From a virus: a DNA stretch of 46,790 nt. Positions 14,538 through 34,463 of this stretch are shown piece after piece. The translations under genes were made by a program, and so were the position numbers. The notes beneath the pieces are model-generated. The model searched no databases. It had not been told where the DNA came from and saw nothing but the letters and a program-made list of their open reading frames with translations. The DNA is taken from positions 3,680 to 50,469 of IMG/VR virus record IMGVR_UViG_3300030389_002782. The stretch is one strand, 5' to 3'. How positions within the stretch are numbered: the first letter of the stretch is position 1; each line of letters begins with the position of its first letter.

Positions 14538-14691
14538 ACAATTAGACAGAATAGAAAAAAGACTAGACGCATTAGAAAAAAAGTTAGATATACTAACGAA
14601 AACCCTTGACAAACACATTAAGTTCATAGATAATACTTATGAAGGATTACGAAATCCAATTGACAGTGTGAAGAAGTGGTTAACTAAATGA
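14521..14691 (+). CDS. Small coiled-coil protein, 56 aa
   Basis: The ATG (14521, or the next codon) overlaps the end of the nuclease gene, and the stop overlaps the next start (ATGA). Residues 6-38 form a coiled coil (LDRIEKRLDALEKKLDILTKTL), ending in a Trp-containing tail (VKKWLTK). A sigma-70-like promoter lies within the gene at 14601-14634. Function unknown. Confidence 0.65.
   Translation: MMKNSEQLDRIEKRLDALEKKLDILTKTLDKHIKFIDNTYEGLRNPIDSVKKWLTK
14601..14634 (+). promoter_or_regulatory. Sigma-70-like promoter for the sugar/curli block
   Basis: AACCCTTGACA (14601-14611), 17 bases, then GATAAT (14629-14634). The 11-base AACCCTTGACA occurs again at 22856 and 26265 in promoter position, which supports a real element. 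Transcription would start about 50 bases before the cytidylyltransferase gene and could run through the curli genes, since no terminator is seen before 22.8 kb. Confidence 0.6.
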
Positions 14692-15098
14692 GAATAGGAT
14701 TTACTTGTAGTAGTTTCGATTTGTTACATGCAGGTCATACTTTAATGTTAGAAGAAGCAAGATCACAATGTGATTATCTAATTGTTGGTATGCAACTAGA
14801 TCCCACAGTTGATAGACCAAATAAAAACAAACCAATTCAAACAGTTGTTGAGAGATACTTGCAATTACGAGGTTCTAAGTATGTAGATGAAATAATTCCA
14901 TATTCTACTGAACAAGACTTAGAAGATATATTGTCAAGTATGCATATAGATGTTCGTATAGTTGGAATTGAATATATGGGTAGAGAATTTACAGGTAAAG
15001 ATATTTGTAATCAAAGAAATATAGAAATATATTATAACGAAAGAGTTCATAGATTCAGTTCGAGTGACAGTGTAAAAAGGATATTAGATAATGAATAA
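14688..15098 (+). CDS. Cytidylyltransferase-like nucleotidyltransferase, 136 aa
   Basis: The nucleotide-binding HxGH motif is at residues 14-17 (FDLLHAGHT) and a late RFSSSDSVKRI segment supplies the second phosphate-binding motif, as in glycerol-3-phosphate cytidylyltransferase (TagD) and related enzymes. Length is that of the single-domain enzymes (about 130). It would activate a phosphorylated polyol or sugar with CTP. The next genes, a deacetylase and a glycosyltransferase-like protein, suggest a small glycan-modifying pathway; the substrate cannot be read from sequence. Confidence 0.85.
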   Translation: MRIGFTCSSFDLLHAGHTLMLEEARSQCDYLIVGMQLDPTVDRPNKNKPIQTVVERYLQLRGSKYVDEIIPYSTEQDLEDILSSMHIDVRIVGIEYMGREFTGKDICNQRNIEIYYNERVHRFSSSDSVKRILDNE

Positions 15099-15672
15099 AG
15101 TATTAGTGTTGTCAGCACACCCAGATGATTTAGAGATATCATGTGGTGGAACAGTTGCAAAGTTTGTTGATGAAGGTAACGTAGTAGATAATATTATATT
15201 GTGTTCAAATGTTAAACATAAAAAATATGTTCCAGCATCATCAAAAATTTTAGGATATAATCCAATATATTTAAATCATAGAGATGAATCACCAACAAGT
15301 AAAGTCATCGCAGAGATAGAAAAGAAAGTTGATATAGAATCATATGATTTATTAATTACACATTGGAGTGAAGATTGGCATCAAGATCACAGATTTTGTC
15401 ATGAATTAGGTAATTCACTAAGAAGAAAACAACAACTTGATGTATGGTATATGAATGCATTTCCATATTGTCAAAAATATAAGAGTTTTGAAGCAAACTT
15501 ATTTGTGGATATTACAAAGTACAAATATAAGAAACTAGACGCAATGTCACTATATGATAATGTGCCAGATGAATATTACATAGGAATCGATAGTATGTCT
15601 AGATATCGAGGATCATTTGTTCATGTAAAACACGCAGAGGTATTTAAAGTTGATACACTTTTGTATGGTTAA
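15091..15672 (+). CDS. PIG-L/LmbE-type N-acetylglucosaminyl deacetylase-like protein, 193 aa
   Basis: AHPDDLEISCGG (His10, Asp12, Asp13) is the metal-binding and catalytic signature of the PIG-L/LmbE family. WHQDHR (His97, Asp99, His100) supplies the second motif. These zinc enzymes remove acetyl groups from N-acetylglucosamine-type sugars. Length is typical of the short bacterial members. It overlaps both neighbours by eight bases and is probably translated with them. Target glycan unknown: host envelope or phage modification are both possible. Confidence 0.87.
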   Translation: MNKVLVLSAHPDDLEISCGGTVAKFVDEGNVVDNIILCSNVKHKKYVPASSKILGYNPIYLNHRDESPTSKVIAEIEKKVDIESYDLLITHWSEDWHQDHRFCHELGNSLRRKQQLDVWYMNAFPYCQKYKSFEANLFVDITKYKYKKLDAMSLYDNVPDEYYIGIDSMSRYRGSFVHVKHAEVFKVDTLLYG

Positions 15673-16373: not shown

Positions 16374-16625
16374 ATGGACTTAGTAGAACTTTTAAATCAA
16401 TATGGTTTTGCAACTATGGCTGCAATTGCAATGGGTTGGTTTATTTTTTTCATATACAACTACATAACAACTCAAGTAAAAGTAAAACTATCAGAAATGA
16501 ATTCTGTATTGATAGGTCTGATTGATCGAATAAGAATGTTAGATAATGATCTGATTAGATTAAGGTCAAAACTTAATACAGTATTAACACTTCGAGAGAT
16601 AGAAAAACAAAAGAAGGATAAATAA
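16374..16625 (+). CDS. Membrane-anchored coiled-coil protein, paralogue of the 17459 gene, 83 aa
   Basis: One membrane span (FATMAAIAMGWFIFFIYNYI, about 12-31) leads to a coiled coil (SVLIGLIDRIRMLDNDLIRLRSKLNTVL). The protein at 17459 has the same layout and aligned residues (AMGxFIFxIxxYI, then DxRIxxxxxDxIxL), so the two are paralogues flanking csgF. They begin the secretion cassette and may be inner-membrane partners of it; that is inferred from position only. Confidence 0.65.
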   Translation: MDLVELLNQYGFATMAAIAMGWFIFFIYNYITTQVKVKLSEMNSVLIGLIDRIRMLDNDLIRLRSKLNTVLTLREIEKQKKDK

Positions 16626-16629
16626 TTAC

Positions 16630-17001
16630 ATGAACAAATTAATTTTTATATTACTATTATTATTCAGCACATCAGCATGGGGTGCTGCGTGGAATGAAAA
16701 ACCAATCATGTGTGCAAGTTATGAAGAGACATTTTCTGCAATCGAGGCAAAAGGTGAAAGGTTAGTGTGGACTGCTGTTCAGTTTACTAAAGTAAAAGGA
16801 CCAGACAACACTTACAGAGAACACCCAGAGATGTTAGTATCTGCCAAATATATAAATGAGTTTACAAGAACATACACATTATTAGAGTATCATCCTAAGT
16901 ATCTAGTGTATTGTGTTATTAGTTGGGGAACAGACTTGTTATTACAAGATGAACTTGATCCTAACACTTACTATAGACCAGACAGAGACGTATTTAAATG
17001 A
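16630..17001 (+). CDS. Secreted protein of unknown function in the curli cassette, 123 aa
   Basis: A clear signal peptide (MNKLIFILLLLFSTSAWGAA, cleavage near residue 18) predicts export. The mature part has two cysteines (MCAS and VYCV) that may pair in the periplasm, and a KYLVYCVISWGTDLLLQDE C-terminus. It overlaps csgF by four bases. CsgE would be expected in a full curli system, but I see no CsgE signature here, so an equivalent chaperone role is speculation. Confidence 0.65.
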   Translation: MNKLIFILLLLFSTSAWGAAWNEKPIMCASYEETFSAIEAKGERLVWTAVQFTKVKGPDNTYREHPEMLVSAKYINEFTRTYTLLEYHPKYLVYCVISWGTDLLLQDELDPNTYYRPDRDVFK

Positions 17002-17459
17002 GAATAATATTAACACTTTTATTTCTATCTAGTTCAGTATTTGCTGAACAATTAGTTCAAGAATTTGGTAACCCTGCATTTAGTGGTAATGGATACTCAC
17101 AACATGTATTATCTGTAGATCAGTTACAACAACAAAGAAAACAAAAGAAGATTGATGATGAAAAATCTGCAATAGCAGCTGCTGAGAGGATAGAAAAGAA
17201 TAAAACTGTTAATAAATTTATTTCAAATGTTGAATCAAGGATATACGCAAACTTGTCTAAACAATTAGTTGATAATATGTTTGGTACAAGTTGTGACACA
17301 ACTACAACAACATGTCCTACAAGTGGCACTGCTGAGATAGAAGGTGCAACAATTTACTGGGTAAAAGACACTTCTACAGACATAATTACACTTACTGTCA
17401 CCGCTGATGACGGTACAGTCACTACAATTACTGTGCCTGTGGGGGATTTTGTCTTTTAA
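16998..17459 (+). CDS. csgF: Curli assembly factor CsgF-like protein, 153 aa
   Basis: After a signal peptide ending SSVFA, the mature N-terminus has QLVQEFGNPAFSGNGYSQHVLSV. This fits CsgF, whose first 35 residues (FxNPxFxGN...L...A..Q) insert into the CsgG pore. The C-terminal half (IYWVKDTSTDIITLTVTADDGTVTTITV) matches the beta-rich CsgF tail domain. In E. coli, CsgF caps the outer side of CsgG and links the nucleator to the cell. csgG follows 280 bases later in the same operon, which strengthens the call. A Thr/Cys-rich insertion near residue 95 is unusual. Confidence 0.85.
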   Translation: MRIILTLLFLSSSVFAEQLVQEFGNPAFSGNGYSQHVLSVDQLQQQRKQKKIDDEKSAIAAAERIEKNKTVNKFISNVESRIYANLSKQLVDNMFGTSCDTTTTTCPTSGTAEIEGATIYWVKDTSTDIITLTVTADDGTVTTITVPVGDFVF

Positions 17460-17740
17460 TGGACTTATTTTTTACAATTTTAAAGGAGTTTGGACTACCT
17501 GTGGCGGCAACACTTGCTATGGGGTTCTTTATATTCCTAATATTAAAGTATATACTTGAATCTGTTATAGGTCAAGTTAGAGGAATGCATGGAATTATTA
17601 TGTCATTAGATAACAGAATAAAAAATATGAATAATGATATGATAAAATTAGATATTCAAATATCTGATGCATTGAATTTAAGACAAGATGAAGAAAGAAT
17701 AAGTAGGGCAGATGGCAAAGAAGACGCAAGGAGAGATTAG
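17459..17740 (+). CDS. Membrane-anchored coiled-coil protein, second copy, 93 aa
   Basis: This is the paralogue of the 16374 gene: a span (LPVAATLAMGFFIFLILKYIL, about 13-33), a short MHGII turn and a coiled coil (LDNRIKNMNNDMIKLDIQISDAL), with a charged end. It lies between csgF and csgG, overlapping both stops (TAATG and TAGTG). Placement inside the secretion cassette suggests a linked role in the inner membrane, not demonstrated in any system I know. Confidence 0.65.
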   Translation: MDLFFTILKEFGLPVAATLAMGFFIFLILKYILESVIGQVRGMHGIIMSLDNRIKNMNNDMIKLDIQISDALNLRQDEERISRADGKEDARRD

Positions 17741-18681
17741 TGTTAAAGATAATTTTAGTAGCATTGTTGGGAACGGCTTTATTCAGTTGTGCTGCAAAGT
17801 ATCAAGATTTTGACACATACAAGGGCGATATGCCTTATATCGAAGGCACACCTACATTAGAATTACTTGAACAATTACCAGACTTAGATCAAGATAAAAT
17901 TACAATCGCAGTATATAAGTTTACAGATCAAACAGGTCAAAGAAAACCAAGTTCTAAATTTTCACAATTATCAACAGCAGTGACTCAAGGTTCAGATGCA
18001 TTTGTAATTAACGCACTAAAATCAGTATCAAAAGGTGATTGGTTTACTGTGGTTGAGAGAAATAGTTTAGATAATCTAGTAAAGGAAAGACAACTTATTA
18101 GATCAACTAGAGAGTTATATGATGGTGAATCTGAAATTGATAATGTTTTAAAACCACTTGTGTTTGCAGGTTTAATTATTGAAGGTGGTATAGTAGGATA
18201 TGATAGTAACACTGCATCAGGTGGTGCAGGTGCAAGATATTTTGGGATTGGTATGAATGAACAATATAGAGTTGATCAAGTTACCATTTCAATGAGATTA
18301 ATTTCAGTGCAAACAGGTGAGATTTTAATTACAACTAATGTTACTAAGACTATTGCAAGTTATAGTGGAGGTGGAGATGTGTTTACTTTTTTAGATATGG
18401 GTACAAAAGCATTAGAAATAGAAACAGGTGTGGCAGTTAACGAACCCGTAAACTATGCAATCCGAACTGCGATTGAATATGCCGTTTTACAAATGATAAA
18501 AGACGGTGAGAGAAAAGAATATTGGAAATACAAAGAAGTGCCAAACAATCAAAAAGTAGAGGAATTACCACCGATACCAATCGAAGATTTACCCATTCCT
18601 AAGATTCTAGAAGAGGAAATGGTGATACCCGAAGAAATCATAGAAATAAATGATTTTGAGGATCATCCTTTACATAAATAA
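17740..18681 (+). CDS. csgG: Curli secretion channel CsgG-like lipoprotein, 313 aa
   Basis: A GTG start follows SD AAGGAGAG. A lipobox (LFSCAA, Cys17) predicts a lipidated outer-membrane protein. The body matches CsgG: KITIAVYKFTDQTGQRKPSS, then GSDAFVINAL, WFTVVERNSLDNLVKERQLIR, a GLIIEGGIVGYDSNTASGG strand and RVDQVTISMRLISVQTGEIL leading to the second hairpin. CsgG forms a nonameric pore that exports curli subunits. A Pro- and acid-rich tail (about 270-313) extends past the usual end. It is preceded by csgF and followed by curlin-repeat genes. Confidence 0.92.
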   Translation: MLKIILVALLGTALFSCAAKYQDFDTYKGDMPYIEGTPTLELLEQLPDLDQDKITIAVYKFTDQTGQRKPSSKFSQLSTAVTQGSDAFVINALKSVSKGDWFTVVERNSLDNLVKERQLIRSTRELYDGESEIDNVLKPLVFAGLIIEGGIVGYDSNTASGGAGARYFGIGMNEQYRVDQVTISMRLISVQTGEILITTNVTKTIASYSGGGDVFTFLDMGTKALEIETGVAVNEPVNYAIRTAIEYAVLQMIKDGERKEYWKYKEVPNNQKVEELPPIPIEDLPIPKILEEEMVIPEEIIEINDFEDHPLHK

Positions 18682-20789: not shown

Positions 20790-22643
20790 ATGAAAAAAAT
20801 TTTTACTCATTGGTCTTTTGCCTTTGTCACTTTATTTTTTTTAATTTGGGTAGGAGTTAAAGATCCACAAGTAAAAGAAATACTTAGATTAAAATCCTTT
20901 GATCTAATGTTACAATCACAAGATAAACAAATATCTCAAGACATTGTTATAGTTACGATAGATGAAAAGTCTATAGAAAAATTTGGGCAATACCCATGGT
21001 CAAGAGATACTTACGCTGATATTATAGATTACCTACGAATAAATGATGCAGGTGTTATAGTATTACCGATATTATTTTCTGAAGAGGATAGATTTGGTGG
21101 TGATGAAATATTTGCAGATACGCTTAAAGATAATTTTGTTGTGGTTGGACAAGTTGGTTCAAATCAAACTTCGAACAATGGTTATCCTAGAGGAGTTGCA
21201 AAAATAGGTAATCCTTTAGATTGGTTATTTGAGTGGCGTGGAATGGTTGGCCCAATATCAGAAATCGGCGATAGTGCCGCAGGTGTTGGAGTTTTAAACA
21301 CATCACCTGAAATAGATGGTGTTGTTAGAAGAATGCCTCTACTAATGAAAATAGGTGAAGATGTATATCCGTCTATGGCAATAGAAGTTATTAGAACTGC
21401 TACAGGTGATCCTAGTTATCAAGTAAAATCTGGTGATGCTGGAATCATTGCAATGCGAGTGCCTGGGTTTGCAACAATAAAGACAGATGCAAATGCTAGA
21501 ATTTGGTTATCATGGAATACAGCATATCCAACTATTTCAGTCGCAGATTTAGGAAGTGAAGAATTAAGATTTACAGGTAAAACTGTTATAGTGGCTGTAA
21601 CTGCTGAAGGATTGAGTAATGTAATAGCAACACCAATAGGAAGTCAATATGATTATGTTGCAATCGCATCTACTTTACAAACAGTTATAGATGGTGTCAA
21701 TATTGAAAGAACAGACATATTGCCACTTATTGAATTATCACTTGCATTCTTAGTTGGTATTGCAATCATTATACTGACAAGATTTACACCATATTTTGTT
21801 GTAGGATTATCATTAGTATTTGGAAGTCTTGGTTCTCTTGTATATACAAACTTATTATTTCAACAAAAACTAATTTTATTTGATGTCACATGGATTTTAG
21901 TTGTATTATTATTTGTTGGTTTACATAGTATATTTAATCGTTTTATTTTAGAATTTAGATTAAAACAACAAATTAGAAAACAATTTGAAACATATCTTGA
22001 TCCTAGACAAGTTGCCATATTACAAAAAGATCCTAGTAAATTAAAACTTGGTGGCGAAAGAAAAGAGATGTCATTCTTGTTTATGGATATCGTAGGGTTT
22101 ACACCGATATCAGAATACTATAAAAACAATAATGACCCAGAGGGATTAGTAGAAGTTATCAATGATTACTTAAATCGCATGACAAAAATAGTTTTGGATA
22201 ATGGTGGAACAGTTGACAAATACATGGGTGATTGTATTATGGCATTTTGGAATGCACCATTAGATTGTCCTAATCATGCTGACATGGCAGTCAAAACAAG
22301 TATTGAATGTGCAAAAGAAACAGAAAAATTAAAACAAGAGTTTTTAGATAAGGGTTTACCAGAGATTAATATTGGATCAGGTGTCAATACTGGCACATGT
22401 ATAGTTGGTAACATGGGAAGTGATACTAGATTTGATTATTCAGTAATCGGTGACGCAGTAAACTTGGCCGCAAGATTAGAGGCATCCACAAGAAATTACA
22501 AAGATAAAAAGGGAAAAGTTTTGACTACATTATACTCATCTTACACAAAAGATCAATTGACTAATATTGAGTCAGTCAAAGTTGATAAAATTAAAGTAAA
22601 AGGTAAAGACGAGTTGATAACAATATACAAACCAAAGGAGTAA
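20790..22643 (+). CDS. CHASE2-domain class III adenylate/guanylate cyclase, 617 aa
   Basis: An N-terminal span is followed by a CHASE2 sensor (about 30-300, with IVTIDEKSIEKFGQYPWSRD and GVGVLNTSPEIDGVVRRMPL), three spans (about 308-380) and a class III cyclase domain (about 420-600). The catalytic set looks complete: Asp433 (FMDIVGFT), Lys477/Asp481 (VDKYMGD), Asp549 (FDYSVIGDAVNLAARLE) with Asn558 and Arg562. Lys477 and Asp549 favour ATP over GTP. It would convert an extracytoplasmic cue into cAMP. It adjoins a FecR protein, a common bacterial pairing, and curli genes. It is unusual cargo for a phage. Confidence 0.92.
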   Translation: MKKIFTHWSFAFVTLFFLIWVGVKDPQVKEILRLKSFDLMLQSQDKQISQDIVIVTIDEKSIEKFGQYPWSRDTYADIIDYLRINDAGVIVLPILFSEEDRFGGDEIFADTLKDNFVVVGQVGSNQTSNNGYPRGVAKIGNPLDWLFEWRGMVGPISEIGDSAAGVGVLNTSPEIDGVVRRMPLLMKIGEDVYPSMAIEVIRTATGDPSYQVKSGDAGIIAMRVPGFATIKTDANARIWLSWNTAYPTISVADLGSEELRFTGKTVIVAVTAEGLSNVIATPIGSQYDYVAIASTLQTVIDGVNIERTDILPLIELSLAFLVGIAIIILTRFTPYFVVGLSLVFGSLGSLVYTNLLFQQKLILFDVTWILVVLLFVGLHSIFNRFILEFRLKQQIRKQFETYLDPRQVAILQKDPSKLKLGGERKEMSFLFMDIVGFTPISEYYKNNNDPEGLVEVINDYLNRMTKIVLDNGGTVDKYMGDCIMAFWNAPLDCPNHADMAVKTSIECAKETEKLKQEFLDKGLPEINIGSGVNTGTCIVGNMGSDTRFDYSVIGDAVNLAARLEASTRNYKDKKGKVLTTLYSSYTKDQLTNIESVKVDKIKVKGKDELITIYKPKE

Positions 22644-23708: not shown

Positions 23709-23951
23709 TTGAAACAATATAGAAGAAAACCAAACTTTGAAAGGACTGAGGGTCTACATGTAATTGTTAGAGATAACAATGTAGATAAGGCCATGAGAAA
23801 GTTAAAGAGGATGGTTAAGAATGCTGGGATTCTACAAGAAATAAAAGAACGACAGTTTTTTCAGAAGCCATCAGAGAAAAAAAGACTTGCTAAAAAGGCA
23901 GGTAAAAAAAGGTGGTTAAAAAAAGTTGCACAAATGGAACATGAGTATTGA
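23709..23951 (+). CDS. rpsU: Ribosomal protein bS21, phage-encoded
   Basis: VIVRDNNVDKAMRKLKRMVKNAGILQEIKERQFFQKPSEKKRLAKKAGKKRWLKK follows bS21 closely: the VxxxxxVDxAxRxLKR helix, G-(I/V)L-E, FxxKPSEKKR, and a basic tail. Length (80 aa) is right. It appears to start at TTG 23709, with AAGGAG five bases upstream. Viral bS21 genes have been reported, including in pelagiphages. bS21 sits next to the 30S mRNA exit platform and affects start-site choice, so it may tilt host ribosomes to phage messages. The mechanism is not shown. Confidence 0.92.
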   Translation: MKQYRRKPNFERTEGLHVIVRDNNVDKAMRKLKRMVKNAGILQEIKERQFFQKPSEKKRLAKKAGKKRWLKKVAQMEHEY

Positions 23952-33397: not shown

Positions 33398-34066
33398 ATG
33401 TTTAATCATGTGCAGGTGAGTGAATTACCAAAATTAAAAACAGAGAATATCAACAAAAAAAGATATTACATAACACCAGACGGAAATAAGTATCCGTCTA
33501 TCACCACAGTCTTATCTAATAGAAATAAAAAGGGATTGTTTGAGTGGCGTAAAAGAGTCGGTGATGATGTTGCTAACTACGTTGCAAGGACAGCTGCAAA
33601 TCGTGGTACAAAAGTTCACCATATGTGTGAAGATTTTTTAAATAATAAAGAAGTTAATGCTGAACCATTTTTTGCGGCTTGTTTATTCAATCAATTAAAA
33701 CCAACACTTCAAGAAAAAATTAATAATATCTATTTTCAAGAATGTGGTTTATATTCAGATAAACTAAAAATTGCAGGTAGAGTAGATTGTATTGCAGAAT
33801 ATGATGGTGAACTATCTATTATAGATTTTAAAACATCATCCAAAGAAAGAAATGATCAGTACAATGAAAATTACTATATTCAAGCGTGTGCTTATGCAGA
33901 AATGTTTGAAGAGAGAACAGGTAAACCTATAAAACAAATAGTAATTTTAGTTGTAACTGAAGATGGCACTGTTCAAGAGTTTGTAAAACAGAAAAGTGAA
34001 GAATGGTTAGATATGTTAGTGACTTGTATTGAGGACTTTAATAAGTCAAACGAGATTACCCATTGA
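33398..34066 (+). CDS. PD-(D/E)XK exonuclease, Cas4/RecB-like, 222 aa
   Basis: YPSITTVLSNRNKKGLFEWRKRVG, the helix ANRGTKVHHMCEDFL, AGRVDCIAEYDGELSIIDFKTS (Asp, then D-x-K of the PD-(D/E)XK core) and YYIQACAYAEMFEERTG (the QxxxY motif) match the single-domain RecB-family exonucleases found in T4-like marine phages, related to mitochondrial MGME1. It may take part in recombination-dependent replication. No clear SD lies before the ATG. It ends at the promoter of the tmRNA. Confidence 0.87.
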   Translation: MFNHVQVSELPKLKTENINKKRYYITPDGNKYPSITTVLSNRNKKGLFEWRKRVGDDVANYVARTAANRGTKVHHMCEDFLNNKEVNAEPFFAACLFNQLKPTLQEKINNIYFQECGLYSDKLKIAGRVDCIAEYDGELSIIDFKTSSKERNDQYNENYYIQACAYAEMFEERTGKPIKQIVILVVTEDGTVQEFVKQKSEEWLDMLVTCIEDFNKSNEITH

Positions 34067-34093
34067 CAATCTTTTACAAATATGATATAAATA
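34063..34093 (+). promoter_or_regulatory. Strong promoter for the tmRNA, with overlapping late box
   Basis: TTGACA (34063-34068), 17 bases, then TATAAA (34086-34091). The -10 is also the exact late octamer TATAAATA (34086-34093). A consensus host promoter and a late box thus coincide, so the RNA could be made at all stages. Confidence 0.75.
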
Positions 34094-34099
34094 TTATTG

Positions 34100-34318
34100 G
34101 AATCGTTGACGTTTTGTAAAACGCTATAGAGGACGTGGGGGCAGTACCCACCACCTCCACCAAGATAAACCTCGACTGAGGGGGTGAAATAGGGTTGACT
34201 TATAGTAAGTATCCTAACTGAGATTTCATTTTTAAATGCAGACCAATATGAGTATGCAATGGCTGCCTAACTAGGTAGTCGGGGTTTGATCGGTGTACCT
34301 GGCAACAGAAACACCGAC
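34100..34318 (+). ncRNA. ssrA: Circularly permuted (two-piece) transfer-messenger RNA
   Basis: The acceptor piece comes first: T-stem GTGGG (34135-34139) pairs CCCAC (34147-34151) around a seven-base loop, followed by CACCTCC (34152-34158) and an encoded ACCA (34159-34162). After a 17-base spacer, the coding piece opens with GGGGGTG (34180-34186), which pairs with CACCTCC over seven base pairs. The third pair is G-U, the alanine identity element. TATAG (34201-34205) can pair with CTATA (34124-34128) as the P2 helix. A tag reading frame (34238-34270) and a seven-base-pair hairpin, possibly a pseudoknot, (34290-34317) follow. Ends are approximate. This gene order is that of alphaproteobacterial tmRNA. 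Confidence 0.87.
34238..34270 (+). other. tmRNA tag reading frame, ADQYEYAMAA
   Basis: Starting at a GCA resume codon, the frame reads A-D-Q-Y-E-Y-A-M-A-A and ends in TAA. The YAMAA end resembles the degradation signal of known tags (YALAA in E. coli). The resume codon is inferred from position and the common GCN usage; the codon before it is AAT. Confidence 0.75.
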
Positions 34319-34337
34319 TGTTCGAAAGGAGTATATT

Positions 34338-34463
34338 ATGGACGGAAGTACATGGATGATATTTACATCTTTGGCATCTTTAATTTTGATTATTGGTATT
34401 GTGAGTTCTAATAAACCTACAAAAAAGAAATCAAAAAAGAAGACAAAGACTAAAAGGAAATAA
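34338..34463 (+). CDS. Small membrane protein with lysine-rich tail, 41 aa
   Basis: SD AAAGGAG (34326-34332) precedes the ATG. A hydrophobic span (WMIFTSLASLILIIGIVSS, residues 6-24) is followed by a very basic tail (PTKKKSKKKTKTKRK). It is the first protein gene after the tmRNA and overlaps the next start (TAATG). Function unknown. Confidence 0.6.
   Translation: MDGSTWMIFTSLASLILIIGIVSSNKPTKKKSKKKTKTKRK

Follow-up and report, generated by a model that had tools for sequence, protein, structure and literature searches.

A phage gene for a CHASE2 receptor cyclase belongs to a module that appears to have been built from a standing bacterial sensor pair, with its enzyme half swapped several times. 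The gene lies in the window, by which we mean the whole 46,790-nucleotide stretch of DNA analysed here, part of a 50,469-base virus record. The set of curli, FecR and adenylate cyclase genes has already been described in pelagiphages, and the protein studied here is one more member of it; what we add is the pairing of FecR with CHASE2 and the swaps of the output domain. Our favoured reading, which we hold with moderate confidence, is that of an envelope-gated source of cAMP, in which the FecR-CHASE2 pair would report on the periplasm, the outer membrane or curlin export.

The cyclase reading frame is intact, opens with ATG and encodes the architecture of a CHASE2 receptor cyclase: an N-terminal helix, CHASE2, three helices and an output domain (Table 1). 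Both domains score above their Pfam cut-offs (CHASE2, E=6.1e-43, residues 17-315; Guanylate_cyc, E=1e-17, residues 425-611), and an AlphaFold model (pLDDT 86.4, built on a 31-row alignment) gives residues 27-310 as a mixed alpha/beta sensor and 421-615 as a cyclase fold. In a fold search the catalytic part matched CyaB (3r5g_A) with a TM by target of 0.87, and Cya2 and CyaC were also among the top PDB matches. The class III set (two metal-binding Asp, the purine-binding Lys, the transition-state Asn and Arg) is complete; among 83 phage sequences, Asp433, Lys477, Asp481 and Arg562 are present in all 83 and Asn558 in 82.

Table 1. Features of the curli-FecR-cyclase cluster and of the cyclase gene, in window coordinates.
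Feature	Position	Strand	Evidence
83-aa paralogue of the 17459 protein, PHROG 18771	16374..16625	+	
CsgF	16998..17459	+	Pfam 3.3e-14
Small protein, 93 aa, one membrane helix and coiled coil (by eye), PHROG 18771	17459..17740	+	
CsgG outer-membrane curli pore	17740..18681	+	Pfam 1.2e-51
First curlin-like protein, 228 aa	18705..19391	+	Curlin_rpt 0.0061, below cut-off; conserved in relatives
Periplasmic FecR-domain protein, 375 aa	19354..20481	+	Pfam FecR 3.7e-9 at 63-157
Second curlin-like protein, 111 aa	20453..20788	+	Curlin_rpt 0.036, below cut-off; Q-x-G-x-x-N motif above shuffles
CHASE2 class III nucleotidyl cyclase, 617 aa	20790..22643	+	ORF, Pfam, AlphaFold model, fold match
N-terminal membrane helix, residues 7-24	20808..20861	+	AlphaFold model secondary structure
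Predicted periplasmic CHASE2 sensor, residues 27-310	20868..21719	+	Pfam 17-315, model
Three membrane helices, 311-332, 335-360, 367-399	21720..21986	+	Model
Class III cyclase domain, residues 421-615	22050..22634	+	Pfam, residue alignment, fold match
Asp433 (metal)	22086-22088	+	
Lys477	22218-22220	+	
Asp481 (metal)	22230-22232	+	
Ser551	22440-22442	+	
Asn558	22461-22463	+	
Arg562	22473-22475	+	

The first-pass annotation of this DNA had claimed a full sensor, three spans and intact catalytic residues. The sensor is indeed there in full and the five residues just counted had been placed correctly; Asp549, which it had also listed, is wrong as the substrate-specifying position, and besides the three helices that follow the sensor the model shows a fourth, at the N-terminus. 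We take the substrate-specifying residue to be the one seven before the transition-state Asn, as in mammalian and CyaB/CyaC cyclases, which here is Ser551, so that at the purine positions, where an adenylate cyclase typically has Lys plus Asp or Thr, Lys477 is present and 551 is Ser. Since the equivalent of 551 is also Ser or Thr in the well-aligning FecR-linked bacterial relatives on plasmids, the protein is probably an adenylate cyclase, a prediction of which residue 551 alone is no proof. Compared with six relatives (dS being saturated in several), dN/dS was 0.022-0.057 in the linker and cyclase, 0.104-0.185 in CHASE2 and 0.163-0.526 in the membrane helices. No other part of the protein is as constrained as the cyclase domain, and the CHASE2 half has many invariant residues.

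The cyclase comes last in a same-strand run of CsgF, a small membrane protein, CsgG, a curlin-like protein, FecR and a second curlin-like protein, in which fecR overlaps the first curlin-like ORF by 38 bases and the second by 29. FecR, CsgG and CsgF are each recognised by Pfam, and the link of the cyclase to FecR and curli genes proposed at first pass is supported. The first curlin-like ORF holds two curlin motifs, a weak signal equalled in 140 of 2000 shuffles, and the second holds three, equalled in 3 of 2000. The order csgF, csgG, curlin, fecR, curlin, AC (adenylate cyclase) is that of the pelagiphage T8SS-FecR-AC module, and the named genes stand in the identical order in the cultured phages HTVC008M and Melnitz. 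We examined 169 AC loci, 87 with at least 4.5 kb upstream and 108 with at least 2.5 kb. CsgG and FecR both lie within 7 kb in 85 of the 87, the curli or FecR genes of the two exceptions (L069 and L166) being just farther off, and FecR is present in 103 of the 108 (absent in L064, L069, L088, L155 and L157). The reverse test, on 80 fetched FecR loci, found the cyclase in 36 of the 37 with at least 3.5 kb downstream. At three loci (L107, L108 and L109) the curli-FecR genes are opposite in strand to the cyclase yet adjacent to it, so the linkage survives rearrangement. No curli gene is annotated in the first 50 kb of the 59.8-kb podophage MW574966. The sequence TATAAATA, which we take to be the T4 late promoter motif, occurs five times on the + strand versus 4.7 expected, with none directly before the cluster; a promoter scan gave 77 hits versus 58.8 (sd 7.9) in shuffles and was left out as evidence.

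Other genes surround the cluster. Cytidylyltransferase-like and PIG-L deacetylase-like genes (14688-15672) adjoin it and perhaps serve surface sugar modification, and a gene for ribosomal protein bS21 (23709-23951, 3.9e-17), kept in several relatives, lies close downstream of the cyclase. The two paralogues of PHROG 18771, a family without assigned function, accompany the curli cluster; many Melnitz-type contigs have them on its other side, on the opposite strand. The module listed in the available excerpts of PMC9599517 includes a histidine kinase, whereas none is visible at this place in the window: the ORFs scanned before csgF gave no kinase domain and, instead, these two small membrane and coiled-coil paralogues, which may be what those excerpts call a histidine kinase, "sometimes two".

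That the paralogues travel with the cluster would also suit a role in the timing of lysis, as proposed for Melnitz in the available part of PMC9004378: CsgG would be a pinholin- or secretin-like pore whose state FecR and the cyclase sense, and no fibre would be made. The same source reports no csgA or csgB, whereas the window has two curlin-like ORFs, below the Pfam cut-off, and such ORFs are present and conserved; moreover, the small PHROG 18771 proteins have no holin family match in Pfam or PHROGs. We regard this explanation as quite unlikely.

The contig is that of a T4-like phage, its record carrying gp32, T4 RNase H, PhoH, ribonucleotide reductase and a tmRNA. The tmRNA gene (34059-34361) fits both alphaproteobacterial and permuted tmRNA models and has the tag peptide ADQYEYAMAA. 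Relatives of the cyclase are encoded by at least 599 IMG/VR stretches (599 of 600 candidates), the best 80 of which were kept for analysis; a Melnitz query found them in 135 of 135 candidate stretches, of which 80 were kept. Among 50,697 phage records, 8 match, 6 of them over at least 80% of the query, namely two HTVC008M entries and four Melnitz strains. The closest relatives, among the matches listed, are all phages (67-92% identical), versus at most about 32% over the full length, and about 52% over just the cyclase domain, for the bacterial relatives from the plasmid collection, and we therefore take the gene for part of an apparently old cassette common to phages, not this phage's own capture. 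The idea of a phage-encoded cyclase acquired from bacteria thus holds in its first half, given the T4-type genes on the contig and the same cluster in HTVC008M and Melnitz, and only partly in its second, the kind of protein being bacterial while the closest matches listed are all phages. Contamination from a bacterial contig, which the first-pass annotation had named as the outcome that would undo its claim, is ruled out, as cultured phage genomes carry relatives in the same cluster.

A genome contig collection gave seven further matches to the cyclase. Five of them (L083-L087), in four MAGs, are phage-like curli/FecR/AC contigs binned in genomes called Flavobacteriaceae, Pirellulales and Sphingobacteriales; the other two (L088 and L089) are bacterial in appearance. 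T4-type gp23 is also present on both AC-bearing contigs (C58 and C79) of one MAG. The gp23 search found none in two of the other MAGs and, in the fourth, gp23 on a contig other than that of the cyclase, so that in those three the phage nature of the AC contigs rests on their curli-FecR-AC content and on similarity. One of the five, L084 (NZAX01000026.1), has a single in-frame TAA within the cyclase frame, and is either a pseudogene or the product of an assembly error.

Comparison of the two main catalytic types, the HTVC008M-type (83 rows, the window's own) and the Melnitz-type (79 rows), indicates that whole output domains have been exchanged among phages, each time for another class III cyclase, because the sensors are about equally close between and within types (median identity 58% between, 63% and 54% within) and the cyclases are far apart between types (36%, versus 85-86% within). 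There is a third catalytic type (L141), whose cyclase is 59% and 45% identical to the two main ones. On a tree of the sensor only (94 rows, from 164 thinned at 90%), at least three switches of catalytic type are required on branches with good support. The safest support for a swap comes from the pair L086 and L155, since L087, L088 and L089 have very long branches. These two are sensor sisters (support 100/100), 0.62-0.75 identical up to residue 320 and 0.30-0.53 from residue 401, and compared with the window protein L086 is 0.70-0.95 identical in the cyclase and only 0.25-0.55 in the sensor. The exchange point falls at about residues 395-402, in the linker into which the last membrane helix (367-399) continues.

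The exchanged domains differ in their active sites. The Melnitz-type keeps Asp, Lys, Asp and Arg and has Asp at position 551, and in 79 of 79 covered sequences (80 rows, one gap) Ser replaces the transition-state Asn, a substitution that is not stated in the available parts of PMC9599517 or PMC9004378. Full activity may therefore not have been kept everywhere, and one could go further and see in these proteins a weak or dead cyclase, retained as a membrane scaffold or receptor. We find this very unlikely: the window's own type retains the whole set in every covered phage sequence, and it is on the cyclase domain that constraint is strongest.

The phage FecR protein has no Pfam domain other than FecR. 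Its model (mean pLDDT 63.1) is confident in the FecR domain only, and model and Pfam together have this domain begin at about residue 30, behind a short hydrophobic leader, with no anti-sigma part. The FecR anti-sigma regulator of iron-citrate uptake has an N-terminal cytoplasmic anti-sigma part, then a membrane helix, then the FecR domain; the phage protein, with its short leader and no second Pfam domain, does not have this architecture. The name of iron regulator is probably a misreading here, and, as the phage FecR has no anti-sigma part, the treatment of FecR as an iron-linked regulator in the available text of PMC9599517 is doubtful.

Bacterial plasmids point to a pairing of FecR with CHASE2. 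From 605 matching records in a plasmid collection we opened 14, picked from 30 listed for genus spread. The closest bacterial relatives found there are receptor cyclases, and FecR genes lie near most of them. When the 14 records were searched for domains over their full length (16.2 Mb, 17 CHASE2 genes, 25 FecR genes), a FecR-domain gene proved to lie within 4 kb of 16 of the 17 CHASE2 genes, against about 0.24 expected by hand arithmetic, the records having been picked by cyclase similarity (which does not apply to the second CHASE2 genes of W10, W12 and W16) and including near kin (two Sinorhizobium, two Ruegeria); in the exception, W15, FecR is about 8 kb away. A Crp-family gene is also found at three plasmid loci (L179, L185 and L186) and at one genome contig (L089). 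From these sequences, FecR and the CHASE2 cyclase look like a standing bacterial envelope-signalling unit, and it therefore seems that the phage, or its ancestor, joined this pair to a curli exporter. Two plasmid loci (L175 and L177) have the pair next to genes for NHLP bacteriocin export, so that curli is not the only secretion system with which the pair is linked.

In 65 thinned phage loci, FecR distance correlates with that of the sensor half (r 0.72), and it still does so given CsgG (partial r 0.59; 0 of 300 permutations as high); with the cyclase half the partial r is -0.09. FecR has diverged in step with the CHASE2 half and not with the cyclase half, and is the probable partner of the CHASE2 sensor. 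Gene closeness alone could produce this co-variation, as fecR is nearer than CsgG to the sensor-coding end.

These observations bear on a simpler view, close to the direct signal override suggested at first pass: a plain override in which the phage floods the cell with cAMP and redirects host transcription and metabolism, the sensor being a relic or always on. The canonical catalytic set is under strong constraint and the exchanged output domains are always class III cyclases, as such a role would have it. However, flooding would need just a free catalytic domain, and here the CHASE2 half is under purifying selection (dN/dS 0.10-0.19), keeps its invariant residues and co-varies with FecR. We judge an override to be unlikely. 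Phages also face cyclic-nucleotide-based host defences, and a cyclic nucleotide made by the phage might block or flood them; blocking a defence would require no envelope sensor, though, and the way the cyclase is constantly tied to FecR and a secretion cluster makes this role extremely improbable.

Under the envelope-gated reading that we favour, the protein would be a membrane-anchored receptor cyclase, with CHASE2 in the periplasm followed by three membrane helices and a helical linker, and with a cytoplasmic class III domain that would make cAMP from ATP as a homodimer. Its partner would be the FecR-domain protein, whose gene stands two places upstream, and FecR/CHASE2 would gate the cyclase, turning the state of the periplasm, of the outer membrane or of curlin export during infection into a change in cAMP, presumably to the benefit of the phage. 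A large periplasmic sensor stands above the enzyme and has a conserved partner in FecR, which argues for a gated rather than constitutive output. The cAMP would act through a cAMP-binding protein of the host, because none of 14 phage or virus records (that of the window, HTVC008M, Melnitz and 11 virus contigs of 68-152 kb) yielded a cNMP_binding (PF00027) protein. The sole matches in that search were eight in a bacterial MAG, none on its two AC-bearing contigs, and the window has no CRP box (TGTGA-N6-TCACA). Against this reading, FecR itself has some role without the cyclase, since podophage clusters, according to the available text of PMC9599517, hold FecR always and AC only frequently.

A more ambitious version is a complete outside-in relay across three envelope layers, from CsgG/CsgF or passing curlin in the outer membrane, through FecR in the periplasm, to the CHASE2 cyclase in the inner membrane. 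With it the infected cell would adjust cAMP in response to its environment or to the export of its own fibres, for instance to time lysis, and cyclase domains would be plug-in outputs exchanged to match host receptors. This proposal, to which we give only a slender chance, draws on an analogy with Sinorhizobium meliloti, where the outer-membrane barrel NsrA is needed by CHASE2 cyclases to respond to the ribosomal protein uL2.

Many ocean phages that infect very abundant bacteria with sparse normal regulation carry the cluster genes, and a signalling input built by a phage would, if true, amount to a new means of viral control over the host. Paired with CHASE2, the phage FecR acquires a testable function other than iron regulation. 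The natural sensor/output chimeras reveal the places at which a receptor cyclase can accept a different domain, and the Asn-to-Ser active site of the Melnitz-type is a natural test of class III catalysis.

Among the closest known systems are the two cultured phages. The cyclase of Pelagibacter phage HTVC008M (AGE60353.1, annotated adenylate/guanylyl cyclase) is 67% identical to the window protein and has the same architecture and CsgF-CsgG-curlin-FecR-curlin-AC order; that of Methylophilales phage Melnitz (QZI94833.1) shares architecture and cluster order, with a similar sensor (58%) and a different cyclase domain (41%). A literature phrase search for phage-encoded cyclases matched nothing. 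The available parts of PMC9599517 (mSystems 2022) describe curli, FecR and adenylate cyclase in podo- and myo-type pelagiphages as a T8SS/curli module with FecR, HK and AC, expressed in metatranscriptomes and of inferred alphaproteobacterial source; the term CHASE2 has 0 occurrences in the text. S. meliloti, as described in the accessible portions of PMC5498481, resembles the window in having CHASE2 cyclases (three of them, CyaD1/CyaD2/CyaK, acting through the Crp-family regulator Clr) and a FecR-domain gene, SMc02177, numbered next to cyaD1 (SMc02176); it differs from the phage in that the latter carries curli genes and yielded no gene of the Crp family. There, CyaD1 without CHASE2 gives constitutive cAMP, a precedent for gating by the sensor, and smc02177, for which a secretion role is also raised, is needed for infection control and not for perception of the plant signal, which counts against FecR as a simple receptor. 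The need of these cyclases for NsrA in responding to a protein signal, a further precedent for gating, is reported in what is available of PMC7529298 and PMC13001267. Finally, in the Burkholderia BiofilmReg operon (PMC5192318, in its available part) a FecR-domain protein adjoins a CHASE2 sensor as in the window, and is tied to biofilm; it differs in that its output is a histidine kinase and its FecR carries a LysM domain.
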